A stretch of DNA of 64,000 bases from Hyphomicrobiales bacterium. GTDB lineage: Bacteria > Pseudomonadota > Alphaproteobacteria > Rhizobiales > Phreatobacteraceae. The translations under genes and the position numbers were made by a program. Within the stretch, counting starts at the first letter, position 1, and every line of letters starts with the position of its first letter. The notes under the pieces are model-generated. The model did not search any database. It had not been told where the DNA came from and was given only the letters and a program-made list of their open reading frames with translations. The DNA lies in NCBI GenBank assembly GCA_017304475.1, contig JAFKKV010000030.1, positions 1 through 64,000 on the forward strand, written 5' to 3'. Shown piece after piece: positions 32,777 to 53,931 of this stretch.

Positions 32777-32866
32777 CGCGCCGGTCCCTGCCGTGCGGCT
32801 CGCGTCGCGCGGCGATGGTTCGTGCCGTCTCCGACGGCCGCTCAGGCTTTTTCAGGATATGTCACC

Positions 32867-33274
32867 GTGAACACGTTCAAACCCACGCGCGCCCTTGCGG
32901 CGGCGCTCATCGGCCTTGCCATGATCGGCTCGGCCAGACCGGCCCTCGCCGATGTCAAGGACTACGAATTCCAGCTCGTCGAAACGACAATGCGAACCGG
33001 GCCGAATACGGTCATCGCGGTCCGATTGATCAACAAGGCGACCGGCCGTCCCGTCCCGGATGCGGTAATCTTCGCGACCCGCCTCGATATGACGCCCGAT
33101 GGCATGCAGGAGATGGCGACCCCGGTGACGCCGGTGCCCGGTGGGGAGCCGGGAACCTATCGATTCAGGGCCAATGTCGGCATGGCTGGCGAGTGGCTGC
33201 TGTCGCTCGGCGCCAAGGTCCAGGGCGAGACCGGCACCGTCGAGAGCCGGCTGATCATTCGAGCCCGGCGATGA
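32867..33274 (+). CDS. FixH-family (YtkA-like) protein
   Basis: 135 residues from GTG 32867. A signal peptide ends near ARPALADVKDY. The mature part is a beta-sandwich domain with IAVRLINKATGRPVPDAVI and a closing GTVESRLII, as in the FixH/YtkA family found beside copper efflux genes. It may act as a periplasmic copper carrier or chaperone. The stop overlaps the CusB start (ATGA). Confidence 0.75.
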   Translation: MNTFKPTRALAAALIGLAMIGSARPALADVKDYEFQLVETTMRTGPNTVIAVRLINKATGRPVPDAVIFATRLDMTPDGMQEMATPVTPVPGGEPGTYRFRANVGMAGEWLLSLGAKVQGETGTVESRLIIRARR

Positions 33275-34698: not shown

Positions 34699-37600
34699 TC
34701 GCCCGCATCATCGCCTGGTCGGCGCGCAATCTGATGCTGGTCATGATCGGCACCGCCTTCGCCGTCGCCGGCGGCCTCTACGCCCTGCGTCACCTGCCGC
34801 TCGACGCCATTCCCGATCTCTCCGACACCCAGGTGATCGTCTACACCGAATATCCGGGCCAGGCTCCGCAAGTGGTCGAGGATCAGGTGACCTATCCCCT
34901 GACCACGGCCATGCTCACCGTGCCGCGCTCCAAGGTGGTGCGCGGCTTCTCGTTCTTCGGCGTCTCCTTCGTCTATGTCATCTTCGAGGACGGCACCGAC
35001 ATCTATTGGGCGCGTGCGCGTGTGCTCGAGTTTCTCAATGGGGCGGCGGCGCGGCTGCCCGCCGGTGTCGCGCCGACGCTCGGGCCGGACGCGACCGGCG
35101 TCGGCTGGGTCTATCAATATGCGCTGACCTCTGGAGAGTTGAACCTCGCCGAAACGCGAAGCATCCAGGACTGGTCCCTGCGGTTCGGGCTCGCCAGGGC
35201 CGAAGGGGTCGCCGAGGTCGCCAGCGTCGGCGGTTTCGTCCGGCAATACAATGTGGTGCTCGATCCGCAGCGCCTGCGCGACCTGGGCATCCCCATGCAA
35301 AGGGTGCGCGAGGCCATTCGCGCCAGCAATGCGGATGTCGGCGGGCGGACCGTCGAACTCTCCGAGTTCGAATATGTGGTAAGGGGCCGAGGCTACCTGA
35401 AGGGCGTCGACGATCTCGGCGAGATCGTGCTCAAGACGGCCAACGGCACGCCGGTGCGCTTGCACGACGTGGCACGGGTGGAGCTCGGCCCGGACGAGCG
35501 CCGGGGCCTCACCGAACTGAACGGCGAGGGCGAGGTCGCGGGCGGCATCGTGCTGCAGCGCTTCGGCGCCAACGCGCTCGACGTCATCAACAATGTGAAG
35601 CGGCGCCTCGGCGAGCTTGCGGGCAGCCTGCCGGCATCGCTTGCGATCGTGCCGGTCTATGACCGCTCGACACTGATCGATGCCGCCATCCAGACGCTCA
35701 AGACCACGCTGTTCGAGGAAAGCGTGGTGGTCGCGCTGGTCTGCATCCTCTTCCTCATGCATGTCCGCAGCGCGCTGGTGGCCATCCTCATGCTGCCGGT
35801 CGGTGTTCTCATGGCCTTCGGCGCGATGAAGCTGCTCGGTCTCGGCTCCAACATCATGAGCCTCGGCGGCATCGCCATCGCCATCGGCGCCATGGTCGAT
35901 GCGGCGATCGTCATGATCGAGAACGCCCACAAGCATCTGGAGCGCGCCGATCCAGCAAACGCGCGCGTTGATGTTCTGATCAAGGCGGCGTCCGAGGTCG
36001 GCCCGGCATTGTTCTTCTCGCTCCTGGTGATCACGGTGTCCTTCGTGCCGATCTTCACGCTGGAGGCACAGGAGGGGCGGCTGTTCAGCCCGCTCGCCTT
36101 CACCAAGACCTTCGCCATGGCGGCCGCGGCGATTCTCTCGATCACCTTGGTGCCGGCGCTGATGATCATTTTCGTGCGCGGCAAGGTCATGCCGGAACGC
36201 CGCAACCCGATTAATCGCGTGCTGATCTGGCTGTACCGCCCGCTGATCAAGGGCGTGCTCAGGGCCAAGACGCTGGTGATCGTGCTGTCGCTCGCCGTGC
36301 TGGCGGTGACCGCCTGGCCGGCCCGCCAGCTCGGCTCGGAGTTCATGCCCAATCTCAACGAGGGGACATTGCTCTACATGCCGACGACGCTGCCCGGCCT
36401 GTCGATCACCAAGGCCGCGGAACTGCTGCAGACCCAGGACAGGATCATCCGGTCGTTTCCTGAAGTGGCATCGGTCTATGGCAAGGTGGGGCGGGCGTCG
36501 ACCGCCACCGATCCCGCGCCCACCGAGATGTTCGAGACCATCATCAACCTCAAGCCGAAGCCGGAATGGCGGCCGGGCATGACCCTGGACGGCCTGATCG
36601 CGGAGATGGACCGGTCGTTGCAATTCCCCGGTGTCTCCAATGTCTGGACGATGCCGATCAAGGCGCGCATCGACATGCTCTCAACCGGCATCCGCACGCC
36701 GGTCGGCGTCAAGGTCATCGGCAATGATCTCCATGAGATCGAAGGAGTGGCGCGCCAGATCGAGCGGGTCCTGAAGAGCGTGCCCGGCACGTCCTCGGCC
36801 TATGCCGAGCGTGTCATCGGTGGCTACTACCTGGACATCGTCCCCGACCGTGCCTCGCTTGCCCGCTACGGCATGATGGTCCAGGACGTCCAGGACGTGG
36901 TCGCGACCGCGCTCGGCGGACAGACCGTGACCACCACCGTCGAGGGCCGTCAACGCTACGGGGTGAATGTCCGCTACCCCCGGGATCTGCGGAGTGATCC
37001 CCAGGCGATCGCACGCGACGTGCTGGTGCCCATGCCGGCAGGTGGGGCGGTGCCGCTCGGCGAGGTCGCCGGCATATCCCTGTCGCGCGGCCCGACCACG
37101 ATCCGCACCGAGAACGGCCAATTGGCTGTTTATGTCTATGTCGATATCCGCGACCGTGATCTCGGCGGCTATGTCGCCGACGCGCAGGCGGCGGTGAAAG
37201 AGGGCGTCCGGTTTCCGCCTGGCGCCTATGTCATCTGGAGCGGCCAATACGAATATCTGGCGCGTGCGACGGCCCGTCTTCAGGTGGTCGTGCCGGTCAC
37301 GCTGATGATCATCTTCCTGCTGCTCTACCTGAACTTCCGCTCGCTCACCGAAACGCTGATCGTCATGCTGTCCTTGCCCTTCGCGGTGGTCGGCGGCGTC
37401 TGGCTGATGTGGGCGCTGGGATTCAATCTGTCAGTCGCGGTCATCGTCGGCTTCATCGCGCTCGCCGGCGTCGCGGCCGAGACCGGCGTCGTCATGCTGA
37501 TCTATCTCGATCACGCACTGGCGGAGGTAAGGGCGAAGCGCCTGGCCGAAGGGCGCAGCTTCACAAAGGCTGACCTGCACGAGGCCATCATGCTGGGGGC

Positions 37601-37811
37601 CGTGGAGCGGCTGCGTCCCAAGATGATGACGGTCGTCGCCATCATCGCCGGCCTGCTGCCGATCATGTGGAGCACCGGCGCCGGTTCGGAGGTCATGCAA
37701 CGGATCGCCGTGCCGATGATCGGCGGCATGATCTCGTCGACCGTCCTGACGCTCATGGTCATTCCGGCCATCTACGGCCTGATCAAGGGATGGCGGTTGC
37801 GCGAGGCTTGA
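34695..37811 (+). CDS. cusA: CusA/CzcA-family heavy-metal RND efflux pump
   Basis: 1038 residues, full length for an HME-RND transporter. Twelve membrane segments in two repeats; the proton-relay motif is in GAMVDAAIVMIENAHKHLE near residue 400. The N-terminal Asp-Pro-rich loops, periplasmic Met residues (for example VWTMPIKARIDML) and the C-terminal GGMISSTVLTLMVIPAIYGL block fit the CusA/CzcA group. The neighbouring FixH, HMBD-bearing CusB and copper genes favour Cu(I)/Ag(I) over Zn/Co/Cd. The inner-membrane pump exports ions to the outside through TolC. Confidence 0.92.
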   Translation: MIARIIAWSARNLMLVMIGTAFAVAGGLYALRHLPLDAIPDLSDTQVIVYTEYPGQAPQVVEDQVTYPLTTAMLTVPRSKVVRGFSFFGVSFVYVIFEDGTDIYWARARVLEFLNGAAARLPAGVAPTLGPDATGVGWVYQYALTSGELNLAETRSIQDWSLRFGLARAEGVAEVASVGGFVRQYNVVLDPQRLRDLGIPMQRVREAIRASNADVGGRTVELSEFEYVVRGRGYLKGVDDLGEIVLKTANGTPVRLHDVARVELGPDERRGLTELNGEGEVAGGIVLQRFGANALDVINNVKRRLGELAGSLPASLAIVPVYDRSTLIDAAIQTLKTTLFEESVVVALVCILFLMHVRSALVAILMLPVGVLMAFGAMKLLGLGSNIMSLGGIAIAIGAMVDAAIVMIENAHKHLERADPANARVDVLIKAASEVGPALFFSLLVITVSFVPIFTLEAQEGRLFSPLAFTKTFAMAAAAILSITLVPALMIIFVRGKVMPERRNPINRVLIWLYRPLIKGVLRAKTLVIVLSLAVLAVTAWPARQLGSEFMPNLNEGTLLYMPTTLPGLSITKAAELLQTQDRIIRSFPEVASVYGKVGRASTATDPAPTEMFETIINLKPKPEWRPGMTLDGLIAEMDRSLQFPGVSNVWTMPIKARIDMLSTGIRTPVGVKVIGNDLHEIEGVARQIERVLKSVPGTSSAYAERVIGGYYLDIVPDRASLARYGMMVQDVQDVVATALGGQTVTTTVEGRQRYGVNVRYPRDLRSDPQAIARDVLVPMPAGGAVPLGEVAGISLSRGPTTIRTENGQLAVYVYVDIRDRDLGGYVADAQAAVKEGVRFPPGAYVIWSGQYEYLARATARLQVVVPVTLMIIFLLLYLNFRSLTETLIVMLSLPFAVVGGVWLMWALGFNLSVAVIVGFIALAGVAAETGVVMLIYLDHALAEVRAKRLAEGRSFTKADLHEAIMLGAVERLRPKMMTVVAIIAGLLPIMWSTGAGSEVMQRIAVPMIGGMISSTVLTLMVIPAIYGLIKGWRLREA

Positions 37812-38041
37812 AAGCCGAAGTTCTCGGACATGGATAGTCCGGTGGGGGGACAGCGACCGGATCGCGATAAGCGGTCGAATGTCGATCGCTTTCGTTGATT
37901 TTTCAGCGCTCTTGTTTGACTTTGGTCGCTTTCGTTCCGTTTTTGGCAGGTTTTTTTCTGGCGCTAAACGGATGGAACACTTGCCCTGCCTCTCATGCGA
38001 AAGGCTTATCGGGCAAGATCGAGCCGCGAGGACCCTGGGGC

Positions 38042-38617
38042 CTACAGATCAGAGGTGCGCGCCTCGACTCGTTTCGCAAGTTCAACGAGGTTTTGACCCT
38101 TGAGGATTGCGATGAAGTCGGGCGCTGAAACTCGGGTCTTGCTCAGATTTCGCCGAGAATGCGCGAGGGAGCCGATCATCAAGTCAGGGGTCTCATCGAA
38201 AAGGCCGCAGAGGAAATCGTCCGGGGTCATTCTTCGGAGGCCAAATTTTTTCAGCTCACTTTCTGGAAAGTGCCGCGAATTCCACGTCAGAATGAGCGAT
38301 GCCCTGGCGGCAATTGCCGCCGCGACAACATGACGATCGCTCCGATCGGGCAGAATTACCTCGGGAATGTGCTCCTCGTATCCGACAATCATTGCCGTTG
38401 GGAGCGCATCATTCATCAATCGCCGGGTGATCTGCAAACGCTCTATCGGAACGGCAGGCGCATTGGCCGCCAGGTTTCGGATCCATTCTTCTTGGATGGC
38501 GTCTGTCCAACGCGCCTCAACAAGGCGGTCTACCGCAGCCTGGACAACGACATTTCTGAGATGAAAAGGATAGAGAATGCAGGCGTCGAAGACGGCGATC
38601 GACGCCTCAAACGCCAT
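38042..38617 (-). CDS. PIN-domain toxin of a type II toxin-antitoxin pair
   Basis: 191 residues. A PIN fold is indicated by VFDACILYPF near residue 9 (first acidic), the central LPDRSDRHVVAAAIAARASLI block with two more acidic residues, and LTWNSRHFP. PIN toxins are Mg-dependent ribonucleases. The start overlaps the antitoxin stop by 11 bases, the usual coupling in such pairs. It is longer than the roughly 130-residue VapC type, matching the PIN proteins paired with excisionase-like antitoxins. Confidence 0.8.
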   Translation of the reverse strand: MAFEASIAVFDACILYPFHLRNVVVQAAVDRLVEARWTDAIQEEWIRNLAANAPAVPIERLQITRRLMNDALPTAMIVGYEEHIPEVILPDRSDRHVVAAAIAARASLILTWNSRHFPESELKKFGLRRMTPDDFLCGLFDETPDLMIGSLAHSRRNLSKTRVSAPDFIAILKGQNLVELAKRVEARTSDL

Positions 38618-39053
38618 GGTGCCGCCTGAGGTCCTCGGCGTCGTCGGCGAGTGCCTCCATTGCCGCCCGCTGGGCGTCAATCCGAGACTTCAGCGCCAAA
38701 ACCTCCTTTAGCTTCGTGCGGCGGTGCTTGCCGACATATCGGAATGGCAGGTCCCCGACGTCCATCCGATGTACGATCAACGGTCGGGAGATTCCCAAGA
38801 TCTCTGCCGCGTCGTTCGGACTGAGTTCCTGATCCTCGGCAAGGACCGCGACACGTTCTCCTTGAAGGAGATGGCCGAGTGCAATCTCGAGCAGCGCCGC
38901 GGCCTTCGGCGGCAGCCTGACGACTTGATCCTCGCCCGACTTGCGGCGCACCCGGACCTCGACCTGGTCGCCCTTGCGCAGCTTGTCGAAGGCTTTGGCC
39001 GCCTTGCGGTCCTGGTCCGAGAGTTCGACATATTGCAGCACATGGGTGGTCAT
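38607..39053 (-). CDS. Excisionase-type HTH antitoxin
   Basis: 148 residues; ATG 39053 has AAGGAG. The C-terminal half has a HTH_17/excisionase motif (LSPNDAAEILGISRPLIVHRM) and the N-terminal half a short beta-rich dimer region. It probably neutralises the adjacent PIN toxin and represses their shared promoter at 39076-39104. Confidence 0.78.
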   Translation of the reverse strand: MTTHVLQYVELSDQDRKAAKAFDKLRKGDQVEVRVRRKSGEDQVVRLPPKAAALLEIALGHLLQGERVAVLAEDQELSPNDAAEILGISRPLIVHRMDVGDLPFRYVGKHRRTKLKEVLALKSRIDAQRAAMEALADDAEDLRRHHGV

Positions 39054-39075
39054 GGTCGGCTCCTTTCCAAGCAGG

Positions 39076-39104
39076 AGTATAGGGCGCGTTGTATCTAACT
39101 GCAA
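39076..39104 (-). promoter_or_regulatory. Sigma70-type promoter of the toxin-antitoxin operon
   Basis: On the minus strand TTGCAG and TATACT are separated by exactly 17 bases, and the -10 ends 22 bases before the antitoxin ATG. Confidence 0.65.
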
Positions 39105-39162
39105 TATCTGAAACGCCGTGGGTCCGCCGTCGCTGCCGAAGCGTCGGATTGCGGCCAGGCGG

Positions 39163-42039
39163 TTACTCGCTTTCCTCGGCTATCGCATCCCTCGCGTGAG
39201 TAGTTTGAGCCCGACGAAGCGAGCGGATTGAGGATGGCAGATAGCCTTTTGGGTAAATATCAACGCGCGATGCGCGCCGGCGACGATGTTTTCCAGCCGT
39301 ATAAGAATCCATATCACGTTCTCGCGAGAGCAGGAATTTCAGAAAACTTACGTCCCTCACGTGGCATGTTTGATAAAGGCTCAGCAACACTAAGTGCTCA
39401 GCAAGGCCGGCCTCTTTGACGCTCCGTCCGACATCTTCTCTATAGTTGCTGATGCGCTTTATGGCGTGCTCGGCCAGATTGTTGTTCCACGATACGCCGT
39501 CATGCTGCAGGAACGTGAATAGGCGCTCGCGATTCCGGAGTAGGCGCTCTTGCAAGGCTTTTGATGCTTCAGATTCGCAAGTGAGCTCCGCGAGCGCGTT
39601 GAAAAAGGCGCTCACGGCTTTGGTATGAGTCTGTAGATAGCGCCGCTTGAGGCTGTGCTCATCTATAGTGACTACGATTGCTCGCAGAAGAGCTCCGAAT
39701 GGCGTGGTGATAGATTGAAGCTCCCGATCAAATGGATTGTCGAGAATCGCTCGGTTCATGTCGCGTATGAGATGGATAAGGCATCTCTGATGCAAGCAAG
39801 GAAGTCCATCGTACGCTGAATAGAAATCAGAAACCAGAACGCCTTTGAAATATTTGAGAAGTTTCCGCAGAAAATGCCCCTCACGCGAGCGGCGGAAGAT
39901 GTAAACTGCGGCTGAGGTGTTGGCGAAAACCCAGACATAGCCCTTTCCATCTTTCAATTTCACTTCAGTTTCATCAACATGCAAGACTGGCCCCGCGATT
40001 AGTCTCGCGAGGATCCTACGATAAGTTCTATGGTATTTGTGGACGAGGATATGCCGAAAATCGAAGAATTCCCACCAATTCACCCGAATCCCGAAGGTTT
40101 CATAGAACAGTTCCGCAAGAGATTTCACTCCGAGCCTATGAGTGATGTGCTGGTAAGCAAACCAGCTCATGAAGCCATGAAAGTACCTTGTTAGGCGCTC
40201 ATAGCGCTCAGGCGTGAAACATCGTTCGCAGCATTCGCACCGATAGGCGACGGCCCTGAACTCTATTACCTTCCGGCGGATCGCGCCGGGAGTAATGATG
40301 AGATCAAAAGCGCGCTTGCGCCTCGTCTGCACACTCTTTGGCCGCCGCTTCGGGTCGATGGGCACGATACGCTTGCTCTTGCAGGCAGGGCAGTGCGTAG
40401 CCGTGATTACCACTCGATGTGTAACCCGCAAGTCGCGGTTTTGCCATCGACGGAGTTTCGTATTGCTGCCTCGCTCGTGCCGGCCGGCTTTCGATCGCAC
40501 AAACACGTGGCGTCGTTGGTAGTCGAAATAGGCCCGCTTGTTCACGAATTCGAAGTCGGCATCCTGGAACTTCGACCACGTGGCTGAACGCGCCAACCTG
40601 TCGAGTTGCGCCACAGACGCCACGTTTGCCGGAGCTCCGGGTTTGCCGTCGGCGTTGTAATTCGATGCGTCGGTCAGGAAATCACAGAGTCTGTGCAGCG
40701 CTTCACAGTCCTCCAGATTGTATTGGATCAGCCGTGTTTTCCATGACGCGTCGCCAGTATTTTCCCAGTTCTTGCGCCAGACGACGCTCTCGACACCGGA
40801 GGCGTCCGGCTCCGTCCAGTGGACGCCGATGTAACCCGCTATCTCCTTGAGCCCGTTCGAGTATGTAGGAAAGTAGAAATGCGGGTAGATGATCGTGAGG
40901 ACGTTGGTGAGTGCGGATAGAATTGCGTCGATGCGCTTCTTGAGCCGGGCTTGGCGCCGCATGCGCGCGATGAATGTTCGTTCATAATTGCCGTAACAGT
41001 AAAGACGTGGTGCCTCATACTGCGCCACGATTTCGAGAAAACGAGCGAAAATTTCGCTTTCTCCTTTTTCATCATCCGCCCAGAACGAGTAACGTGCGAC
41101 GTTCTCATCTTCGCAAACAACGAGTCCGATTAGATATATGAAGCCATTTTCGGGGTCACCCTCCATATCAACATAGATGCGCACTGTTGCCGCAGGAACT
41201 GTGGGTGAGCCCAGCACATAGATTGTCTTGTCGCGAATGGCCAGCGCGTGCAACGCATGGTCTCGCCGGGTGGGCGGAGCGTCAGCGCGCTTGCCGTGTC
41301 GTCGAGGCCGAAAAGTGTGCGCGAGCTGGGTCAATGAAAGAATGCCCTTGCGGGCGTATCGTTTGATCGTCCTTTCGCCGATGCCACGCAGGAGGCTCAG
41401 ATTGTCCTCGCGGATGGCTTGGTCACGGCAACGTTCGCGGAACGCGCAAATGCGGCAATGGTCATTAAGTACTAGCTTCGGCGGGGCGTCGGCGCGCTGC
41501 AAGCGCTCGGCATCTCGGAGGAAAGCTTGCGCCGCCGTCAGGGCCGATCCGAACCGAATGCTCGCCCTCGCGCTGTCGCGCCCGAGATAAACGGTTGCGC
41601 CACTAGGAAGTGTGTCCTGAATCCTCGCCAAAAGAACCGCGTATGTGGCAAGTCGTCGGCGATCGAGAGCGCGAACCCGGGACGCAGTGCAAATTAGCAC
41701 CGGTTCATACTGGAAGTGTCCGAGTGCCGAAGGACCATCGATCTTGCGAAGGGCATCGAAGTGGACGGCATAGCGATCGTCTTCCAAAGTAGCGCCGAGG
41801 ATCAATGCAGCTCCTTTGCGGAGGACGGCGACGGACAAGTTAAGATCAGTCGCTACGTCGGTTTCGCCGTGGGCGCGCCGAATCTTTTCGGTGGCCTTAA
41901 GCTGCAGGCTGGCCCGCTGCTCGTCCAACAGCTTCTCGTACCCCGATTGGGCTCCTTGCTCATCATGCAGATGAAGATACGCCTTTAAGCGGCAGTGCTG
42001 CAGCGCATCTATGATATCGTCAGTGATCCTGGAGGACAT
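39163..42039 (-). CDS. Cas4-like RecB nuclease - DEDD exonuclease - zinc ribbon - IS66-type DDE transposase fusion
   Basis: 958 residues from ATG 42039 (AAGGGG six bases upstream). Four modules. Residues 1-215: TM0106/Cas4-like RecB nuclease with an Fe-S ligand set C16, C195, C198 and C204; acidic D95 and E112 remain but the usual Lys two residues after E112 is absent. Residues 285-455: RNase_H_2/YprB-like exonuclease with DME (D291, E293) and YNLED (Y440, D444). Residues 550-607: zinc ribbon CPAC...CECCERC. Residues 650-915: IS66-type DDE domain with HVDETEVKL (D689), VSDFYSAYD (D738) and NNLAEHAIK (E857). All sit in one open frame without a frameshift. Base composition is visibly A/T-richer than the flanks. 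No TnpA/TnpB partners of IS66 are present. Function unknown. Confidence 0.88.
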   Translation of the reverse strand: MSSRITDDIIDALQHCRLKAYLHLHDEQGAQSGYEKLLDEQRASLQLKATEKIRRAHGETDVATDLNLSVAVLRKGAALILGATLEDDRYAVHFDALRKIDGPSALGHFQYEPVLICTASRVRALDRRRLATYAVLLARIQDTLPSGATVYLGRDSARASIRFGSALTAAQAFLRDAERLQRADAPPKLVLNDHCRICAFRERCRDQAIREDNLSLLRGIGERTIKRYARKGILSLTQLAHTFRPRRHGKRADAPPTRRDHALHALAIRDKTIYVLGSPTVPAATVRIYVDMEGDPENGFIYLIGLVVCEDENVARYSFWADDEKGESEIFARFLEIVAQYEAPRLYCYGNYERTFIARMRRQARLKKRIDAILSALTNVLTIIYPHFYFPTYSNGLKEIAGYIGVHWTEPDASGVESVVWRKNWENTGDASWKTRLIQYNLEDCEALHRLCDFLTDASNYNADGKPGAPANVASVAQLDRLARSATWSKFQDADFEFVNKRAYFDYQRRHVFVRSKAGRHERGSNTKLRRWQNRDLRVTHRVVITATHCPACKSKRIVPIDPKRRPKSVQTRRKRAFDLIITPGAIRRKVIEFRAVAYRCECCERCFTPERYERLTRYFHGFMSWFAYQHITHRLGVKSLAELFYETFGIRVNWWEFFDFRHILVHKYHRTYRRILARLIAGPVLHVDETEVKLKDGKGYVWVFANTSAAVYIFRRSREGHFLRKLLKYFKGVLVSDFYSAYDGLPCLHQRCLIHLIRDMNRAILDNPFDRELQSITTPFGALLRAIVVTIDEHSLKRRYLQTHTKAVSAFFNALAELTCESEASKALQERLLRNRERLFTFLQHDGVSWNNNLAEHAIKRISNYREDVGRSVKEAGLAEHLVLLSLYQTCHVRDVSFLKFLLSRERDMDSYTAGKHRRRRASRVDIYPKGYLPSSIRSLRRAQTTHARDAIAEESE

Positions 42040-42310
42040 CGCTACCCCTTGGTCACCAAAGGGGGGCTTGTCGCACACGACTATCGCTTTATTCAGGCGA
42101 ATGGGCCGCAGAAGTTGCCCAGGCTGGATGGGAGCCGTCGACGAAGCCAGCACAAAGGGCGGTTCGACCGTTCATGCGATAGGTCCACCGAATCTGCGGT
42201 TGAGAAGGAGAAGCCATGGCCTGATGAAGCTCTAGGAATTGATGTGCCAGGTGCTCAGTTCGGCAATACGCGGTGAAGTCAGGGCATTTCTGGCGCAATG
42301 ACCCGAAGCA

Positions 42311-42325
42311 GATCTTGATAAGATC
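42311..42325. repeat. Hyphenated palindrome GATCTT-GAT-AAGATC
   Basis: Perfect 6+3+6 dyad, 22 bases from the tRNA 3' fragment and 272 bases upstream of the fusion-gene start. Could be an operator, an element end or a small terminator. Confidence 0.5.
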
Positions 42326-42346
42326 CTTCCCCATCCCTCGATTTTT

Positions 42347-42406
42347 TGGCGGGCCCTGCAGGGCTCGAACCTGCAGCCGGGCCGTTATGAGCGGCCGGCC
42401 CTAACC
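42347..42406 (-). pseudogene. 3' part of a CAU-anticodon tRNA (Ile2/Met-like), likely attachment-site scar
   Basis: Read on the minus strand: D-loop GGTTA and D-stem 3' side GGGC, anticodon stem GGCCG/CGGCC (5 perfect pairs), loop CTCATAA with anticodon CAT, variable CGGCT, T-stem GCAGG/CCTGC, T-loop TTCGAGC, acceptor 3' strand AGGGCCC, G discriminator, encoded CCA. The 5' acceptor and D-stem 5' side are missing; the histidine-kinase stop codon abuts instead. A 3' half ending exactly at CCA is typical of a duplicated att site for a tyrosine integrase. Confidence 0.75.
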
Positions 42407-42407
42407 T

Positions 42408-43796
42408 TCAGCAGCCGGAGCTCGCCGCGCGCCGCCTTGGCACTTCGAGACTACTGTGAATCTCGCTCGCAGCCGGGGTGACGCTCGGCAGCGTTACCGT
42501 GACCGAGAGCCCTCCCACCGGCCGATCCGACAACAGGACGTCGCCGCCATGGGCGCGAATGATCGATCGGGCGACGGTGAGGCCGAGGCCGACGCCGCCG
42601 GTCTCCTTGTTGCGGGAATATTCGAGGCGGTGGAAGGGCGCGAAGACGATCTCCCTGTCCTTGTCGTCGATCCCCGGGCCTTGGTCGGCCACCACGACTT
42701 TCGCGGTCGCGCCGTCGCTCGACAGGTCGATATCCGCCCGGTCTCCGTATTTGATGGCATTCTCGATGATATTGGTCAGGGCACGCTTGAGAGCGAGTTT
42801 TCGCCCGAGAATGACGACGGCACGCGGCGCCGAAAAGCTGGTGGGCTTGCCCATTTCGTCGAAATCGGTCGCGATCGCCTCGACCAGCGAGACCAGGTCG
42901 ACGGGGCGCATCGGCTCGTCCGACCGGTCGCCCCTGAGGAAGGCCAGGGCGCCTTCAATCATCGTTTCCATCTCGCCGATATCGGCCTCGATATCGGCTC
43001 GGGTTTCCGCGTCAGCGACGTCCTCGGCGCGAAAGCGCAGGCGGGTCAGCGGTGATTTCAGGTCGTGCGAAATCGCCGCCAGCGTCTGGCTCCGGTCGTC
43101 GATGAGCTTCTTGATGCGGACCTGCATGACATTGAACGCCGCGGCCAGCTGCCTGACCTCGGTCGGCCCCGCCTCGGCGACCTTGACCACTTCGGCGCCC
43201 GTCGAAAACTGCAGCGCGGCGTCGGCGAAGCGTTTCAGCGGCCGGGTCAGCCAACCCAGCAGGAGAATGGCGACCAGCACGAGACCGCCGGCCATGAGCG
43301 AGGTCGAATAGACCGTGCCGTGGCTCGATATCGGCAGGTCGCGCACCGAGACGACGCTGACATTGACCCAACTCTGATCCGGGAGTTGCATGGAAATCAT
43401 CGCGATATGCTCGTCATCGCGCAGCTTGGCACTGGTTCCGATCACGAGATTGCCGCCATTGAGTTCAGGCGCGACGGTCATCAGCCGTCCGCGCAGCCCG
43501 TCCAGGCGCGCGACCTCGCTGCCGCCGGGAACGGCATGCTCGGCGAGGCTCCAGTGAACGTCGAACGGGCCGCCGGCCAGCGCATGCGCGGTCTGTTCGC
43601 GTTCGGCGGGGCGGGCCTGCATGACCGTGCGCATGATCGATACCAGGCGCTCGGCCAGGCGCGCGTCGTTGTTGGAGGTCAGTTCCGCCTGAAGCGCCGC
43701 CTGATAGGTCCATAGGCTTGCGACGTGCAGGGCACCGATCGCGACCAGCAAGACGAGGATCGTTCGTCCGGGGATCGAATTGAGCAGATTTTTCAC
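42408..43796 (-). CDS. Two-component sensor histidine kinase
   Basis: 462 residues. Two membrane segments (residues 12-34 and about 164-184) flank a periplasmic sensor, then HAMP, HisKA with the phosphorylated His in AAISHDLKSPLTRLR near 243, and HATPase_c with N, G1, F and G2 boxes (NIIENAIKYG, DQGPGIDD, FHRLEYS, GGVGLGLTV). Its start overlaps the response-regulator stop. By position it most likely senses periplasmic copper and phosphorylates the adjacent regulator. The last codons run directly into the tRNA scar, so its C-terminus may have been modified by integration. Confidence 0.88.
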   Translation of the reverse strand: MKNLLNSIPGRTILVLLVAIGALHVASLWTYQAALQAELTSNNDARLAERLVSIMRTVMQARPAEREQTAHALAGGPFDVHWSLAEHAVPGGSEVARLDGLRGRLMTVAPELNGGNLVIGTSAKLRDDEHIAMISMQLPDQSWVNVSVVSVRDLPISSHGTVYSTSLMAGGLVLVAILLLGWLTRPLKRFADAALQFSTGAEVVKVAEAGPTEVRQLAAAFNVMQVRIKKLIDDRSQTLAAISHDLKSPLTRLRFRAEDVADAETRADIEADIGEMETMIEGALAFLRGDRSDEPMRPVDLVSLVEAIATDFDEMGKPTSFSAPRAVVILGRKLALKRALTNIIENAIKYGDRADIDLSSDGATAKVVVADQGPGIDDKDREIVFAPFHRLEYSRNKETGGVGLGLTVARSIIRAHGGDVLLSDRPVGGLSVTVTLPSVTPAASEIHSSLEVPRRRAASSGC

Positions 43797-44563
43797 TCGC
43801 GTCTCACCGAACGGCTGAACATGTAGCCGACGCCGCGGACGGTCTTGATGATCGAATGGGCGCCGCCCGCCTCGTCGATCTTTTTCCGCAGGCGGCTGAT
43901 CTGAACATCGATGCTGCGGTCGAAGCCGGTCGTCGTTCTGTTGCGCGCAGCGTCCAGCAGATGCTCGCGCGTCAGCACGCGTTGCGGCGCCTCGACCAGG
44001 GTCAGCAGCAGGTCATAGTCGCCGCTGGTCAGTTCGATGATGACGCCCTCGGGATTGATGAGGTCGCGCCGGAGGGTATCCAGCGTCCAGCCTTCGAAGG
44101 CATATTTTCGCGACCGCGCGCCCGGTTCGCTTTCGCGCGGGCCGAAGCTCCGGCGCAGAACCGCATTGATGCGGGCCAGCAATTCCCGCGGATTGAACGG
44201 TTTGGCGAGATAGTCGTCCGCGCCGATTTCCAATCCGACGATCCGGTCGGTCTCGTCGCCCTTGGCGGTCAGCATGACCACCGGGGTCTGCGATTGGGCC
44301 CGGATTTCGCGGCACAGATCAAAGCCGCTGATGCCGGGCAGCATGACATCCAGGATGACGAGGTCGACGGTGGTATGCGCGACCACCTCCCGCATCTCGT
44401 AGCCGTCACGCGCGGCGCTGACCTTGAAGCCGTTCGCACGCAGAAATTTCGCGACCAATTGGCGGATCTGGCCGTCGTCGTCGACGAGCAGGATGTGGAC
44501 GCCGCTGCCGGGTTCCGAGGCGGCGCCGGGGGCGATGCCGTTATTCGTTTGCGAGGAGATCAT
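43793..44563 (-). CDS. OmpR-family response regulator
   Basis: 256 residues. The receiver domain has DDD near residue 28, the phospho-acceptor Asp in VILDVMLPG near 72, and the conserved Lys in LAKPFNPRELL near 122. A winged helix follows with ELTSGDYDLLLTLVEAP and RSIDVQISRLRKKI. It belongs to the CusR/CopR-like group by context. A box TTTCC-N5-ATTACAA upstream of its gene is repeated upstream of the copper operon start, suggesting control of both. Confidence 0.88.
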   Translation of the reverse strand: MISSQTNNGIAPGAASEPGSGVHILLVDDDGQIRQLVAKFLRANGFKVSAARDGYEMREVVAHTTVDLVILDVMLPGISGFDLCREIRAQSQTPVVMLTAKGDETDRIVGLEIGADDYLAKPFNPRELLARINAVLRRSFGPRESEPGARSRKYAFEGWTLDTLRRDLINPEGVIIELTSGDYDLLLTLVEAPQRVLTREHLLDAARNRTTTGFDRSIDVQISRLRKKIDEAGGAHSIIKTVRGVGYMFSRSVRRE

Positions 44564-44628
44564 CGGCGACGAACTCAGTGATCCGAGGTTTCATCGCAAA
44601 TTTCTAGGTTGTGTAGATCTCAGCGGCG

Positions 44629-44645
44629 TTTCCGGCTCATTACAA
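44629..44645 (-). promoter_or_regulatory. Candidate copper-response box, copy 1
   Basis: TTTCC-GGCTC-ATTACAA on the plus strand (TTGTAAT-N5-GGAAA when read on the transcribed side), 66-82 bases before the response-regulator start. The same element is at 49433-49449. Confidence 0.55.
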
Positions 44646-44724
44646 ATTGTTTCGGCGGGGCCCTGCGGTTTCGGGCCACGCGATGCCGCATGCGTCGCCC
44701 ATCGATGCCCGGCGGAACGATCAT

Positions 44725-45201
44725 TCAGCCGTTGATGGGAGCCGATCCGTGAAAGCGCATGAAGACGGACGGTCCGCCGGTGCCGAAAGCCAAGACGTCA
44801 TAGGTGTCGGGCTCCACGCCTGGAACCTCCATGCCCGGCGATCCCACGGGCATTCCGGGCACCGCCAGGCCGCGAATGGCCGGCCGTTCGGCGAGGAGGC
44901 GGATGAGCGAGGCGGCCGGGACATGGCCTTCGAGGATGTAGCCCTCCACTTCGGCCGTGTGACAGGACCACAGCGCGGCAGGCACGCCGAGCCGGGCCTT
45001 CACGGCATTGATCCTGATTTCCTCGATAATTCTCGTCGGAAACCCGGCCGCCGCGATGTGATCGGCCCAGGCGCCGCAGCAGCCGCAGGACGGATCCTTG
45101 TGCATGACGACGACGGGCCTTTCGGCCGCCGAGCCCGTTCGGATTCCGGCACCGGCGACCAGCGGAAGGGCCGCGAGAAAAGAGCGGCGGGTGATCGTCA
45201 T
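44725..45201 (-). CDS. DUF411 periplasmic metal-binding protein
   Basis: 158 residues; the start at 45201 gives a Tat-like signal TITRRSFLAALPL and a GGAAA site. The mature part has the DUF411 metal site HKDPSCGCCGAWADH and SCHTAEVEGYILEGHVPA. Members bind copper or related metals in the periplasm in Cu-resistance clusters. The long 3' gap separates it from the response regulator; it follows CusF at 125 bases. Confidence 0.82.
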   Translation of the reverse strand: MTITRRSFLAALPLVAGAGIRTGSAAERPVVVMHKDPSCGCCGAWADHIAAAGFPTRIIEEIRINAVKARLGVPAALWSCHTAEVEGYILEGHVPAASLIRLLAERPAIRGLAVPGMPVGSPGMEVPGVEPDTYDVLAFGTGGPSVFMRFHGSAPING

Positions 45202-45326
45202 CGTGCCGTTTCCGTCTTTCGGCGTCATTTCGCTATTCTCCAATGCCGGCCGGCGGCCGGCAATGCCGAAATGGGGCATTGGGGCCGCCGTGGGATTGTT
45301 GCCGCCTGCGCGGCGAAGGACCAGAT

Positions 45327-45620
45327 TTATCGGGCGCGCTGCATGCGGGTGATCGTGATCGCGCCATTGACGCGTTCGGCATCAAAGCGGACGCGATCAC
45401 CTTCACGCACCTGCTGGAGCATGGCGGGGTCGGCGACCCGGAACACCATGGTCATGCCGTCCATTTCCAGGTTCGCGATGGGGCCATGCTTCAGCGTGAT
45501 CCGGCCGCGCTCGGCCTCGATCTTGACGACCTCGCCGGTCACCGACTGGGCTGTGGCGGTGGCGACATGGCCCATCGTCGCGAGGCCGGCGGCGAGGGCG
45601 AGAGCTTTGATCATGGACAT
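45327..45620 (-). CDS. cusF: CusF-like copper/silver-binding protein
   Basis: 97 residues with a signal peptide (ALALAAGLATMGHVATATAQ). The OB-fold copper site of CusF is seen in GRITLKHGPIANLEMDGMTMVFRV, with His and two Met ligands and a nearby aromatic. It carries Cu(I)/Ag(I) in the periplasm to a CusB adaptor; the cusB gene is on the other side of the insertion at 33271. Confidence 0.82.
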   Translation of the reverse strand: MSMIKALALAAGLATMGHVATATAQSVTGEVVKIEAERGRITLKHGPIANLEMDGMTMVFRVADPAMLQQVREGDRVRFDAERVNGAITITRMQRAR

Positions 45621-45646
45621 GGAGAAACCTCTTCTTGCGGGGTGGT

Positions 45647-46105
45647 TCAGCGAACGGTGATCCGGCCATGCATGCCGGCCTGGTAGTGACCCGGGATCAG
45701 GCAGGCGAATTCGAACGTGCCGCTATTGGTGAAGCGCCAGATGATTTCGCCCGATTTCGTGGGCTCGACCTTCACGGCGTTCGGATCGGCATGTTCCATG
45801 TCCGGATTGCGTTCCATCGCGGCCTTGTGGCGCTGATTGCCCTCGAACGTGTCGATGACCATTTCGTGGTCGAGCGCCCCGCCGTTCTTCACCACGAAGC
45901 GGACCGTATCGCCCCGGTTGATGGTGATGTCGGCCGGCTCGAACAGCATCCGCCCGTCGCCTTCCAGCATGCGCACCTCGACGGTGCGCGTGACGCTGGC
46001 GCGATGACCCTCTTCGCCGGCGGGAGATGACGGGCCGTGGGCCATCGACGCGCCGGTCAGGGCGGCGATTGTCGCAAAGGCCAGCAGAGCTGATGTCTTC
46101 GACAT
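45647..46105 (-). CDS. Periplasmic cupredoxin-domain protein
   Basis: 152 residues; the 46105 start has a GAGGACA site and signal peptide. A type-1 copper centre is complete: His in ALDHEMV and Cys, His and Met in FACLIPGHYQAGMHG. It is an azurin/plastocyanin-like electron carrier or copper store of the resistance operon. It follows the multicopper oxidase by 25 bases. Confidence 0.85.
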   Translation of the reverse strand: MSKTSALLAFATIAALTGASMAHGPSSPAGEEGHRASVTRTVEVRMLEGDGRMLFEPADITINRGDTVRFVVKNGGALDHEMVIDTFEGNQRHKAAMERNPDMEHADPNAVKVEPTKSGEIIWRFTNSGTFEFACLIPGHYQAGMHGRITVR

Positions 46106-46130
46106 GATCTGTCCTCGTCTTGGTCTGATG

Positions 46131-47537
46131 TCAGTGGTTGGAATGGCTGCCGCGGGCACGGCGGGCCGCGCGGTCGAGCACGCGTGCCGCCGGCGCGGGG
46201 CCGGGCGGGGTTGCGGCGCGGGTGGGTTGGGCGAGCGGCGGCCCTTTCCACTCATAGGCCACGGTGCCGGGCGGATGCTGGTACCAGCCGGGATCCCGGT
46301 AGTCGCCGGCGGCCAGGCCCTCGCGCACCTTCACGACCGTGAACATGCCGCCCATCTCGACCGGCCCGAACGGCCCGTCGCCGGTCATCATCGGCAAGGT
46401 ATTGGCCGGAAGGGGCATTTCCATCGCGCCCATCTCGCCCATGCCGGCGCCACCCATCGGCATGAAACCCGGCACCAGTCCGCGGATGGCCCGGGACACC
46501 TGCCGCTGATCCACGCCGATCATGGTGCGCGTGTCATGGCCCATGGGGCCCATCGTGTGGTGCGACTTGTGGCAGTGAAACGCCCAGTCGCCCTCGTGCA
46601 CGGCATGGAATTCATAGGCGCGCATGGCGCCGACGGGCACGTCGACGGTCACCTCCGGCCAGCGGGCCTCGGGACGGACCCAGCCGCCATCCGTGCAGGT
46701 CACCTCGAAATCGTAACCGTGCATGTGGATCGGATGATTGGTCATGCTGAGATTGCCGATCCTGATCCGGACGCGGTCGTTCTTGGCCACCACCAGGGGA
46801 TCGAGTCCCGGCCAGGTGCGGCTGTTCATGCACCAGATGTTGAAATCGGTCATGGTCGAGACCTTCGGCACATAGGTCCCCGGGTCGATGTCGAAGGTAT
46901 TGAGCAGGAAGACGAAATCGCGGTCGACGCGGTGCAGGGCGGGGTCGCGCGGATGGACGACGAAGAAGCCCATCATGCCCATGGCCATCTGCACCATCTC
47001 GTCGGAATGCGAGTGGTACATGAAGGTGCCGCTTTTGCGGAGCTGGAACTCGTAGACGAAGGTCTTGCCGGGCGGGATATGCGGCTGGGTCAGTCCGCCG
47101 ACGCCGTCCATGCCCGAGGGCAGGATCTGGCCGTGCCAATGCACCGCCGTGCTCTCCGGCAGGCGATTGGTCACGAAGATGCGAAGCTTGTCGCCCTCCA
47201 CCGCCTCGATCGTCGGGCCGGGGCTCTGGCCGTTATAGCCCCACAGATGGGCGACCATGCCAGGCGATATCTCGCGCACCACCGGCTCGGCGACGAGGTG
47301 GAACTCTTTCCATTCGCCGTTCATGCGCGCGGGCAAGGTCCAGCCGTTCAGCGTGACGACCGGCTGGTAGTCCGGTCCGCTGGAGGGCGGTGCGAGGGGA
47401 GCCTGGGTGTTCGCCTTGGTCATGGTCGGCGCCTCCGGCAGGCTTGCCGTCTGCGCTCGTCCACTGACCTGGGATGCGCCGACGAGGGCGAGGCCGGCGC
47501 CGGCGGTGGCAAATAGTCCACGTCGCGATACGGACAT
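46131..47537 (-). CDS. Multicopper oxidase, CopA/CueO-like
   Basis: 468 residues with a Tat signal (SVSRRGLFATAGAGLAL). The four copper motifs are in order: HWHG near residue 142, YHSHSDE near 184, HPIHMHG near 280 and HCHKSHH near 336. The Met-rich stretch near 370-400 (FMPMGGAGMGEMGAMEMP) is typical of Cu(I)-oxidising CopA. It oxidises toxic Cu(I) to Cu(II) in the periplasm. The middle gene of the copper operon. The Arg/His-rich C-terminal tail is unusual. Confidence 0.88.
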   Translation of the reverse strand: MSVSRRGLFATAGAGLALVGASQVSGRAQTASLPEAPTMTKANTQAPLAPPSSGPDYQPVVTLNGWTLPARMNGEWKEFHLVAEPVVREISPGMVAHLWGYNGQSPGPTIEAVEGDKLRIFVTNRLPESTAVHWHGQILPSGMDGVGGLTQPHIPPGKTFVYEFQLRKSGTFMYHSHSDEMVQMAMGMMGFFVVHPRDPALHRVDRDFVFLLNTFDIDPGTYVPKVSTMTDFNIWCMNSRTWPGLDPLVVAKNDRVRIRIGNLSMTNHPIHMHGYDFEVTCTDGGWVRPEARWPEVTVDVPVGAMRAYEFHAVHEGDWAFHCHKSHHTMGPMGHDTRTMIGVDQRQVSRAIRGLVPGFMPMGGAGMGEMGAMEMPLPANTLPMMTGDGPFGPVEMGGMFTVVKVREGLAAGDYRDPGWYQHPPGTVAYEWKGPPLAQPTRAATPPGPAPAARVLDRAARRARGSHSNH

Positions 47538-47553
47538 GACGTCTTCCTCGTTG

Positions 47554-49119
47554 CTAATGCGCGGCCGCGCCGGTTTCGGCGCCGGCAACTGCGGTGGTGG
47601 GGGTGTCCGATGAGCCGCCGCTGGGCGCTCCGCCGATGACCACGAATTGCAGGTCGGTCTTGGCGATCCAGAAGTCTCGGCGGGCTTCGATGGCCGCGGC
47701 ATTGGCGGCGATGCGGGCCCGTGCCTCGGTGAGAAGCGAGAACACGTCGACCATCATGCCGTTGTACCGGAGCTGGCTTTCATCCGCGATGATCTGGCGC
47801 AGCGGCAGGATCTGCGACTGGTAATGGCGGGCAAAGTCGAAACCGCCGCGATAACGCTGGTAAGCCTCGCGCGCCTCGGAACGCACATTGACGCCGCGTT
47901 CGACCAAGCGATTGACCGAGCGCAGATAGGTTTCGCGCGCCTCGCGGAGACGGCTTTCGCCCAGGTCCAGGGGCATCTGGACTTCCAGGGACAGGCCGCT
48001 GATGCGGGTCCGTTCGAATTCGGTCTGGTGGTTCTCGACGAGCTGCCCGCCCTGAAGGCTGTAGGAGCGTTCGGTGCGCGTGGACCGTTCGTTGTTCAGC
48101 GCGCCCTGGAGCTCCAGGACATTCAGAAAGCGCGACCATTGGGTCAGGTCGAGCTGGCGGGCGACGCCGTCGACCTCCAGGCGCGCGATCCTGAGATCGA
48201 GCCGCTTCTCCAGCGCCTCCCGTTCGATCGCGTCGCGGGACACGGGGCGAGGCGGCAAGGCCGGCAATTGGGCCGGGATTTTCAGCGCGGTTATATTGTC
48301 CCAGAGACCGAGTGCCCTGATCAGGCGTTCGCGGTCAGCCTGGTTCTGAAGCCGTGCGCGGGCGAGCTGGGCTGCCACATCGGCGTAGAATACGTGCTCG
48401 CGCGCCTGGTCCAGCCGATTGACCGCACCGGTTTCGCCGAGACGCTTGAATAGCTCGGAAGCCGTCCGCGCCGCGGTATTGGCCTGGGTGAGGAAATTGA
48501 CGAGCTGGCTGGAGGCGACGACACGGTAATAGGCCCGGCGCGTATCGCCGGCGAGGCGCAGCGTCTCCTCGGCCGCCCGCAACTGCGCCTGGCTGAACCG
48601 CACCTCGGCGACGGCCCGTCTTTGCGGCAGGGTCGCGAGCCCGAGAACGTTGACGAGCAACTGGCGCTCGATCTCGATCGCGCCGGTGCTGGCGAGCCGC
48701 GTCAGCGAGAGCGTCGGGCTCGGCGGCAAGCTGGCCTGGACGAACAGCGCTTCGGAAATTCCAAGATCGTTATAGGCGGCCTGCAGGCCGCGATTGTTCA
48801 TGAGGGCGATCTGGACCGCCCTGTCGACGCTGAGCGGGGATCGCAGCAAGGCCGTGACGCGCGCCTTGACCCTGTCGCTGTCGGCCGGCTCCCGGATGCG
48901 CCCGACGTCCTGACGCAGTTCGCGGGCCGCGATGTCGCGGGTGACACCGAGGCCTCCGTCGGGGCTATAGCTGGCGCAGCCGCCGAGCGCCGTGGCGGCG
49001 CCGACCAAGATGGCGCCGAGCCGAACCGGGTGGAGCAGTCTTTGGGCGGTGTTCGGCCGGGCGGCGGCGCGGGTCGGATGGTCGCAGGTGGATGATGTCA
49101 TGATCGTCATCGCCCTCAC
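47554..49119 (-). CDS. TolC-family outer-membrane efflux lipoprotein
   Basis: 521 residues. The first start (49119) overlaps the small lipoprotein stop; internal ATG 49110 and 49101 are alternatives. A lipobox LGGC near residue 48 and the TolC repeat region (ALMNNRGLQAAYNDLGISEALFVQASLPPSPTLSL, split between two copies of long helices) identify the OMF family. It probably forms the outer-membrane exit for the CusBA pump encoded at 33-38 kb. Confidence 0.82.
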   Translation of the reverse strand: MRAMTIMTSSTCDHPTRAAARPNTAQRLLHPVRLGAILVGAATALGGCASYSPDGGLGVTRDIAARELRQDVGRIREPADSDRVKARVTALLRSPLSVDRAVQIALMNNRGLQAAYNDLGISEALFVQASLPPSPTLSLTRLASTGAIEIERQLLVNVLGLATLPQRRAVAEVRFSQAQLRAAEETLRLAGDTRRAYYRVVASSQLVNFLTQANTAARTASELFKRLGETGAVNRLDQAREHVFYADVAAQLARARLQNQADRERLIRALGLWDNITALKIPAQLPALPPRPVSRDAIEREALEKRLDLRIARLEVDGVARQLDLTQWSRFLNVLELQGALNNERSTRTERSYSLQGGQLVENHQTEFERTRISGLSLEVQMPLDLGESRLREARETYLRSVNRLVERGVNVRSEAREAYQRYRGGFDFARHYQSQILPLRQIIADESQLRYNGMMVDVFSLLTEARARIAANAAAIEARRDFWIAKTDLQFVVIGGAPSGGSSDTPTTAVAGAETGAAAH

Positions 49120-49373
49120 CGCGCCGGGGCGCCGGGGGCGACGCGTTCGTTCGAGCGCCCCCAGTCGATCGGGCCGACGGGGCGGAACGCGGTGAAGCCG
49201 GCGAGCACCGGCTGATAACGGACCTGACGGCTGGCGATGGCGGGGTCGGCGGCCTCTTCGCCGAGGCGCGCTCGCGTCCCCGTCTCGGTACAGGCACCAA
49301 GCGCCAGTCCGGCCGTGACGGCCATGCCGATCGCTTGAATTCGAGTGGATAGGAAGTGGTTGATCTGCGGCAT
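49116..49373 (-). CDS. Small lipoprotein heading the copper operon
   Basis: 85 residues from ATG 49373; a GTG at 49400 is the alternative. A signal peptide ends in a lipobox LGAC. The mature part is short, with FRPVGPIDWGR near its end; no family is recognised. It overlaps the TolC start and carries the copper-box at 49433 upstream, so it is first in the copper operon. Role unknown. Confidence 0.6.
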   Translation of the reverse strand: MPQINHFLSTRIQAIGMAVTAGLALGACTETGTRARLGEEAADPAIASRQVRYQPVLAGFTAFRPVGPIDWGRSNERVAPGAPAR

Positions 49374-49432
49374 GCGCGCCCCGGTGGAACTGAGTCTCAC
49401 CGGGACGCTAACGGCGCTGTTCGCAGGTCGTA

Positions 49433-49449
49433 TTTCCCGACTATTACAA
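49433..49449 (-). promoter_or_regulatory. Candidate copper-response box, copy 2
   Basis: TTTCC-CGACT-ATTACAA, the same spacing and ends as at 44629, 60 bases before the small lipoprotein ATG. Probable binding site of the OmpR-type regulator. Confidence 0.55.
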
Positions 49450-49491
49450 TTTATTGCCGGGCACCCCCGACGATCGCCGGGCCTGCGCGCC

Positions 49492-50916: not shown

Positions 50917-50966
50917 GGCTGGCCTCGCGGCATGAGATCTGTCGGAAAGAGATGGCGGGCGGCGCG

Positions 50967-51323
50967 TCAACTGCCGCGATAGGTCGCGTAGCTCCAGGGC
51001 GTCACGATCAGCGGCACGTGATAATGCGCATCGGCATCGGCGATCGTGAAGCGAATTGGCACGTCGTCCAGAAATGGCGGATCCGCCTGGGCGACGCCCG
51101 CGGCGCGGAAATAGTCCGCCACACCGAACACCAGTTCATAGGTGCCGGCGGTGAGCGTTGCGCCGGCGAGCAACGGCTCGGCGGTGCGGCCGTCCTCGCC
51201 GGTCCGGACCTGTTTGACCAGGGCGCGCGTGCCGTCCTGGGCCAGGCGATGAAGCGTCACGTCCATGCCGGCGGCCGGTCGGCCGGCGGCGGTGTCGAGC
51301 ACATGTGTCGATAGCCGTCCCAT
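50967..51323 (-). CDS. uraH: 5-hydroxyisourate hydrolase
   Basis: 118 residues, the usual length of the transthyretin-like enzyme. The HIUase signature is intact: [17 protein letters not shown] at the start, an Arg in the DVTLHRLA strand, and the C-terminal [18 protein letters not shown] with YRGS. It hydrolyses 5-hydroxyisourate, the product of PuuD, to OHCU. It shares its promoter region with the divergent nucleobase permease. Confidence 0.95.
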
Positions 51324-51385
51324 CGTATTCTCCGCGTGTTGGCTATCGCCAGTTAACCCAAGCTGGCCGCATTCATTTTCATGCA

Positions 51386-51398
51386 GATTTTGAAAATC
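51386..51398. promoter_or_regulatory. Palindrome GATTTTGAAAATC
   Basis: A 13-base perfect palindrome about a central G, between the divergent uraH and permease genes; candidate regulator site. Confidence 0.45.
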
Positions 51399-51439
51399 TT
51401 ACCGATTTTGAGATCATTGCGTAGGATTTGCCGGCAACC

Positions 51440-51454
51440 TTCAATGCCAGGACG
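51440..51454 (+). promoter_or_regulatory. Purine-cluster 15-mer, copy 1
   Basis: TTCAATGCCAGGACG, 56 bases before the permease ATG. An identical 15-mer lies at 53932-53946 between the LysR and puuD genes. Confidence 0.6.
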
Positions 51455-51510
51455 CGTGCACTTGAAAGACCGGGAAATTCGGCCGGCATGCGCTCAGGGA
51501 GGAGAGGACG

Positions 51511-53916: not shown

Positions 53917-53931
53917 GGCGCTCTCTGGATT

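Follow-up and report, generated by a model that had tools for sequence, protein, structure and literature searches.

The tRNA fragment at positions 42347-42406 of the window (the whole 64,000-nucleotide stretch analysed, i.e., the first 64 kb of contig C5, 129,122 bp) appears from sequence comparison to be one end of a small, old mobile unit, which spans 37840-42406 and carries a nuclease–transposase fusion gene together with a toxin-antitoxin-like pair. The unit is probably of the integrase-less, cis-mobilizable type and moved in trans by a tyrosine recombinase, the half tRNA being its left attachment site. Integrase-less tRNA scars are usually dismissed as relics of large islands, whereas the scar in the window leads to a small recurrent unit, composed of one fusion gene and one toxin-antitoxin pair between copies of the target 3' end and encountered in at least four phyla. 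Fixed ends also delimit integrase-less cassettes in roughly one third of the Bradyrhizobium-like genomes searched. Either an integrase acting in trans serves many cassettes, or the DDE/Cas4 fusion integrates site-specifically; either, if true, would account for the movement of operon-sized cargo in the absence of visible mobility genes.

The half tRNA and its genomic surroundings

Aligned with Bradyrhizobium campsiandrae locus L095, where the tRNA is intact, the fragment on the minus strand corresponds to the 3' 60 nt of tRNA-Ile2(CAU), from the D-loop to CCA (reverse complement GGTTAG-GGC-C-GGCCG-CTCATAA-CGGCC-CGGCT-GCAGG-TTCGAGC-CCTGC-AGGGCCC-G-CCA). The original prediction of a half tRNA with CAU anticodon and paired arms was borne out: the anticodon and T stems are both fully paired (5/5 each), the loop reads CTCATAA, and CCA closes the fragment. 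Loop and relatives' sequences indicate derivation from tRNA-Ile2 and not from tRNA-Met, the label that ARAGORN gives to every CAU anticodon. In the own genome (8.38 Mb, 79 contigs), BLAST returned a sole other long match, C14:3611-3671 (87% over 61 nt, E 2.1e-14), at the genome's only intact tRNA-Ile2 copy (C14:3615-3687). Seven differences separate the half tRNA from the nearest intact tRNA, six of them AT to GC.

The 5' half is missing, as had been proposed. The Rfam tRNA model aligns only over model positions 10-63, and its 24.9 bits fall short of the gathering score of 29; within the window, no Rfam family reached its gathering score. A whole tRNA called by ARAGORN at 42347-42423 was rejected as an artefact of the 5' side, its first 17 nt matching a real tRNA-Ile2 at chance level. 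None of the tests applied showed selection on the structure of the half tRNA, which was found in no other congener genome (1/12). The intact plasmid tRNA-Ile2 of Aminobacter pSR3 (L013:3985-4060) has a G discriminator, as does the half tRNA.

The histidine kinase ORF (42408-43796) ends, in accordance with the earlier description, against the half tRNA, its TGA stop at 42410-42408 standing just before GGTTAG. It encodes 462 aa vs 439 aa in congener G011, a 7.35-Mb single-contig genome. Since homology to the kinases of G011 and of own contig C59 ends near 42486, the last ~22 residues are considered foreign: the 79 nt at 42407-42485 (minus strand), which separate the half tRNA from the homologous part of the kinase gene, are translated as an extra C-terminus.

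Contig C5 is collinear with G011:4.80-4.87 Mb, where a 32.9-kb segment (30656-63562), comprising efflux genes, the tRNA-bounded unit, the kinase/regulator genes, and copper and purine genes, is missing. As the flanks C5:30655 and C5:63563 correspond to G011 positions 4822410 and 4822709, only 299 bp apart, the 32.9 kb were inserted, including the half tRNA, the copper and purine genes, and the efflux operon. C5 genes of the inserted segment occur in G011 0.87 Mb away in swapped order, 42486-57796 being directly followed by 32359-37796. The uninterrupted G011 site (4822410-4822709) contains no tRNA, hence is not the empty tRNA site that had been anticipated in relatives. No PF00589 match was detected on the 129 kb of C5 (E limit 1e-3), the six matches in the genome being all on other contigs, and no tRNA on C5 reached the Rfam threshold, the genome's 44 tRNAs likewise lying elsewhere; the claim of an integrase near an intact tRNA bounding the island is thus not supported on this contig. 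The reading as an integrase-type scar holds insofar as the fragment is an attachment-site remnant and tRNA-Ile2 is a target of mobile DNA in relatives. Towards the end of the contig (C5:124001-129122), the translations of several genes resemble type I-E cas genes.

The expectation of an intact tRNA with identical 3' 60 bases was contradicted as well, the resident tRNA-Ile2 being 87% identical, situated on another contig, and part of a different island with its own scar. This resident island is delimited by the intact tRNA (C14:3611-3687) and a 34-nt exact 3' copy at about C26:148-181. Sequence from C14:3611 onward is collinear with G011:743603, C26 onward corresponds to G011:742099-741684, and C26:3197-3607 matches sequence just downstream of the G011 tRNA-Ile2; the collinearity of C14 and C26 with G011 therefore places the island between these two contigs and not on C5. 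A further tRNA 3' copy, with a CTT anticodon arm, lies near position 6382 of locus L051 (own-genome contig C36), about 1 kb from a PF00589 integrase, and probably marks another island end.

The best match to the half tRNA among 397 genomes of the order was 89%, and 385 genomes of the class gave none at E<=1e-17 beyond the own genome. Phages yielded no match, and the exact half-tRNA pattern was absent from viral contigs. Plasmid tRNAs of Bradyrhizobium, Sinorhizobium, and Methylobacterium (38 records), considered as possible scars, were discarded, as all five records inspected contained complete tRNAs.

The 4.6-kb unit and its ends

The unit (37840-42406) measures 4567 bp with a GC content of 0.564, vs 0.660 for the window, and the low-GC stretch at 37.5-42.5 kb encodes the fusion protein and an HTH/PIN pair. 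The fusion gene (39163-42153, minus strand) joins a TM0106/Cas4-RecB-like part, a DEDD exonuclease, and an IS66-type DDE transposase, the product being 996 aa long if translation starts at GTG 42153 and 958 aa if it starts at ATG 42039. On the same strand, a small HTH_17/excisionase-like protein (38607-39104; 24.1 bits, below the Pfam cut-off of 27) is the putative antitoxin and a PIN-domain protein (PIN_3, 38042-38680; 31.5 bits) the putative toxin. The two ORFs are adjacent and overlap, the gene arrangement of a type II toxin-antitoxin pair, and they would act as such. Leaving aside the role of the DDE domain, the ORFs and domains of the unit include no integration or transfer genes.

Three Bradyrhizobium loci (L090, L092, and L095) were the closest among the best 80 of 148 relatives, with DNA identity of 76.5-77.5% reaching beyond the gene. 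The alignments cover window positions 38072-42395 in L090, 38040-42406 in L095, and 37853-41052 in L092, whose contig stops within the gene. Homology passes through the half tRNA in L090 and L095, and all three loci have a further Ile2 3' copy past the far end. Locus L095 has an intact tRNA-Ile2 (376-451) immediately 5' of the fusion gene, in the same place as the half tRNA of the window, followed by the frameshifted fusion gene, the HTH gene, the PIN gene, and a repeat at 4890-4936. This layout argues that the half tRNA is the left end and that the unit spans 37840-42406. The aligned element therefore runs to lower coordinates, opposite to the island through the copper, purine, and ars clusters originally envisaged. 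In L089 (Bradyrhizobium) and L091 (Mesorhizobium), homology is limited to the fusion gene.

Both ends carry the arm word CGCACCAGAA, whose window form GCGCCAGAAA is found at 42287-42296 and 37955-37964. On the left it is the core of the arm motif CATTGCGCCAGAAATGCC (42284-42301, minus strand), which is CACCGCACCAGAAAYGCC-like in the Bradyrhizobium units; the right arm (37955-37976, minus strand) reads CATCCGTTTAGCGCCAGAAA, with the Bradyrhizobium form GCACCAGTTTCGCACCAGAA. The right attachment core ACCGCTTATC (37866-37876, minus strand) is where the recognisable element ends. Within the window, GCGCCAGAAA occurs at both unit ends and once more, against an expectation of 0.14, the third copy being outside the unit at 6186-6195 (minus strand). 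Alignment shows both ends to be conserved: on the left (A2), the window unit was aligned with L095, two units of L090, and two cassettes that lack the fusion, L202 and L201, and on the right (A3) with L095, L092, L208, and two copies from L090.

The right end of the window unit retains arm and core, and its match to the tRNA breaks off in the anticodon loop; the tRNA likeness of its outer part does not exceed chance (1410 of 2000 shuffles were as good). At the left end, 20 nt on the 5' side of the crossover persist. With the right tRNA part beyond recognition and the left so extended, decay has been asymmetric. No terminal inverted pair bounding the unit was present among the 14 inverted pairs listed.

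Bounded units and cassettes in other bacteria

Relatives were collected by scanning genome contigs with a three-sequence alignment (A1), and 82 fusion loci, i.e., the best 80 of the 148 matches plus two from plasmids, were examined by direct-repeat and motif scans and by inspection. Six are units of 3.7-4.7 kb bounded by repeats of a gene 3' end, which corresponds to 6/82 loci or to 4/44 of those with a long enough contig on both sides. The repeats derive from tRNA-Ile2 in Bradyrhizobium (L090, 49/49 nt) and B. campsiandrae (L095, 46/47 nt), both 4485 bp start to start, from tRNA-Gly(CCC) in Verrucomicrobia (L137, 30/30 nt), from a tRNA in Acidobacteria (L135, 28/28 nt), and, in two Nitrospirae loci (L130, 42/43 nt; L107, 117/143 nt), from the 3' end of a gene that we take from its translation to be comM/yifB-like. 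The arm repeats of L137 were not above chance (170/500 shuffles).

Each bounded unit contains the fusion gene and one toxin-antitoxin pair, and nothing else; the pairs are of the HTH/PIN, UPF0175/DUF3368, AbiEi/AbiEii, and Gp49-like/HTH_3 types. ORF inspection and phmmer found no integrase inside the six units. Integrase matches were obtained in 10 of the 82 loci, one directly upstream of the L135 unit, and tyrosine integrases adjoin tRNA 3' copies in L219, L221, and L135. The other 76 loci, many on short contigs, gave no recognised pair of gene-3'-end repeats: in L092, whose contig is truncated on the left, only the right copy is present; a lone tRNA 3' half, in the orientation of the fusion gene, occurs in L114, L121, L122, and L148; and L093, L094, L117, L139, L141, and L162 contain other direct repeats. 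Across the 82 loci, 15 tRNA 3'-half motifs, a count that includes intact tRNAs, lie within 2 kb of the fusion gene (12 on the same strand, three on the opposite one), compared with 0.025 per shuffled replicate (40 replicates) and with one in 467,426 bases of control genomic DNA. The fusion loci of Acaryochloris and Calothrix have no tRNAs nearby.

The right-end pattern was detected in 84 of 265 genomes of the genus of genome G045, taken to be Bradyrhizobium, and its reversed control in none. Among twenty stretches with the pattern, both boundaries could be set for ten cassettes, L090 (= G925) and nine that lack the fusion gene; none of the ten Ile2 cassettes overlaps a PF00589 match among those listed (down to E 1.8e-8). 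Left arms are conserved only in some cassettes and units (L090, L095, L201, L202, and L216). The cargo of L201 and L216 is catabolic, including aldehyde and alcohol dehydrogenases and enoyl-CoA hydratase. In L219 (5290-6592) and L221, the gene of a 405-aa tyrosine integrase ends 40 bp before an Ile2 3' copy of a different end type, and is a candidate for either a helper or a rival island family. L090 is a tandem array at tRNA-Ile2, whose upstream cassette (L090:2067-5191) encodes an ORC-CDC6-like ATPase (below cut-off) together with a PRTase-CE protein; the two may form a defence pair.

The fusion protein and the mode of movement

Residues 44-493 of the fusion protein match TIGR03491 (TM0106 RecB-like) with 239 bits, above cut-off, and residues 570-941 form the IS66 transposase domain (PF03050, 103.9 bits; NF033517, 172.5 bits vs a cut-off of 180). 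Of 74 single-ORF homologues, 71-72 have residues 727, 776, and 895, presumably the DDE catalytic triad, and every one has the exonuclease residues 329/331/482. Four cysteines are shared by 68-72; variation is seen at positions 133, 137, and 150, taken here as the Cas4/RecB active site. A structure model based on a 40-sequence alignment (A4; pLDDT 83.7, pTM 0.56) was compared by VIA-align, in which residues 1-220 matched Cas4 (7mi4_A; Z 15.2, rmsd 3.4, 192 aligned) and residues 284-456 the exonuclease domain of E. coli Pol II (3k5o_B; Z 14.4, rmsd 2.7, 152 aligned). The 50 VIA-align matches listed included no DDE transposase; Foldseek found one, that of ISCth4 (E 2e-7, TMt 0.46). The sequence profile also retrieved Cas4 (8d3l, E 6.4e-6). 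Compared with the TM0106 RecB-like nucleases of TIGR03491, which residues 44-493 resemble, the fusion has the IS66 domain in addition.

Tyrosine integrases leave repeats of the target 3' end, cross over in the anticodon loop, use arm words in the same orientation, and allow tandem accretion. Given the observed ends, relatives, repeats, and gene content, site-specific recombination, crossing over in the anticodon loop, would place the unit in the tRNA-Ile2 gene; the unit would bring its own copy of the tRNA 3' half, so that the host tRNA is restored and a second 3' copy is left at the far end. A tyrosine recombinase acting in trans would recognise the arm words near both ends, the unit being a 'hitcher'; as the unit has no integrase, mobilisation in trans is the simplest reading. 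The window unit would then be a relic away from its tRNA, the tRNA 5' half having been lost at the junction with the kinase gene and the right copy having decayed. Against a trans-acting integrase stand the different end type adjoining the L219/L221 integrase, the lack of recognisable target repeats in most fusion loci, the restriction of L089 and L091 homology to the fusion gene, and the unequal decay of the two ends in the window.

Random capture of cargo would not be expected to yield just the fusion and a toxin-antitoxin pair in each of four lineages, and this constancy keeps the fusion protein a candidate for the unit's own mobility enzyme, in our judgement an unlikely but not negligible alternative. 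The Cas4-like and DnaQ-like parts would trim the ends and the DDE domain would join them at tRNA or comM 3' ends, the pair serving as an addiction module and the same-ended cassettes with other cargo being non-autonomous dependants. In favour are the whole content of all six bounded units, with four pair types, several targets, and four phyla, the conservation of the DDE residues and the exonuclease triad, the structural matches described above, and the lack of a recombinase in the end-sharing cassettes examined, L208 showing by eye a fragment of an IS5-like transposase. The fusion might, tentatively, represent the recombinase of a new class of mobile unit, site-specific at tRNA/comM 3' ends, restoring its target, accompanied by an addiction module, and moving the catabolic cassettes of Bradyrhizobium: a DDE system behaving like a tyrosine-integrase island, with prespacer-trimming-like nucleases built in. 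However, long repeats identical to the target and arm words in the same orientation resemble tyrosine-integrase att sites and not the terminal inverted repeats of DDE elements, the ends occur in 84/265 genomes against four Bradyrhizobium loci among the 80 best of 148 fusion matches, and viral contigs contain no relative. IS66 insertion sequences have terminal inverted repeats and produce a short target duplication. The fusion shares with that family the C-terminal DDE domain and its presumed catalytic triad, but the domain is here joined to Cas4/exonuclease parts and the unit is bounded by tRNA copies, with no terminal inverted repeats found.

Somewhat less probable still is that fusion and pair are defence or stabilisation cargo hitchhiking in unrelated tRNA and comM islands, mobility being incidental. 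The integrase genes near 10 of the 82 loci, the AbiE-type pair in L137, and a weak Cas4 match by PADLOC would fit, but the six bounded units hold no other cargo and the PADLOC models include no system built on the fusion. A large tyrosine-integrase island that extends rightward through the copper, purine, and ars genes, with the half tRNA as its attR, is very improbable: the CCA-ended half tRNA and the insertion of the right-hand block relative to G011 agree with it, yet neither integrase nor tRNA was detected on C5, the elements homologous to the unit are located to the left of the half tRNA, and the 33-kb insertion includes sequence to its left and right and ends elsewhere. That a tRNA-like RNA with a function or regulatory role follows the kinase gene, as the ARAGORN call and the intact stems might suggest, is hardly credible in view of the sub-threshold Rfam score, a fold z-score of -0.65, the broken D arm and acceptor, and the restriction to one of 12 congener genomes.

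Returning to a unit mobilised in trans, a full-text search of open-licence PMC papers retrieved none on such a fusion or unit, and three known systems offer comparison. Tycheposons, in the portions of PMC10872708 that describe them, are likewise tRNA-targeted, flanked by tRNA copies, and variable in cargo, but possess a tyrosine recombinase, which the present units do not. CALIN integron cassettes, in the relevant parts of PMC11389934, are similar in forming integrase-less arrays with shared ends moved in trans; the units described here differ in att type (tRNA 3' ends vs attC) and in their larger, operon-sized cargo. The cis-mobilizable elements called CIME, as outlined in sections of PMC5704250, resemble them in having att sites at both ends, no integration or transfer genes, and tandem accretion at one target gene (as in the L090 array). 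The present units differ from that outline in their conserved, non-random fusion and toxin-antitoxin content across phyla and in not looking like decayed ICEs or IMEs. In the window the left att site is present and the right one decayed, with arm and core kept and the tRNA part unrecognisable, whereas the right site is intact in L090, L095, and L092.
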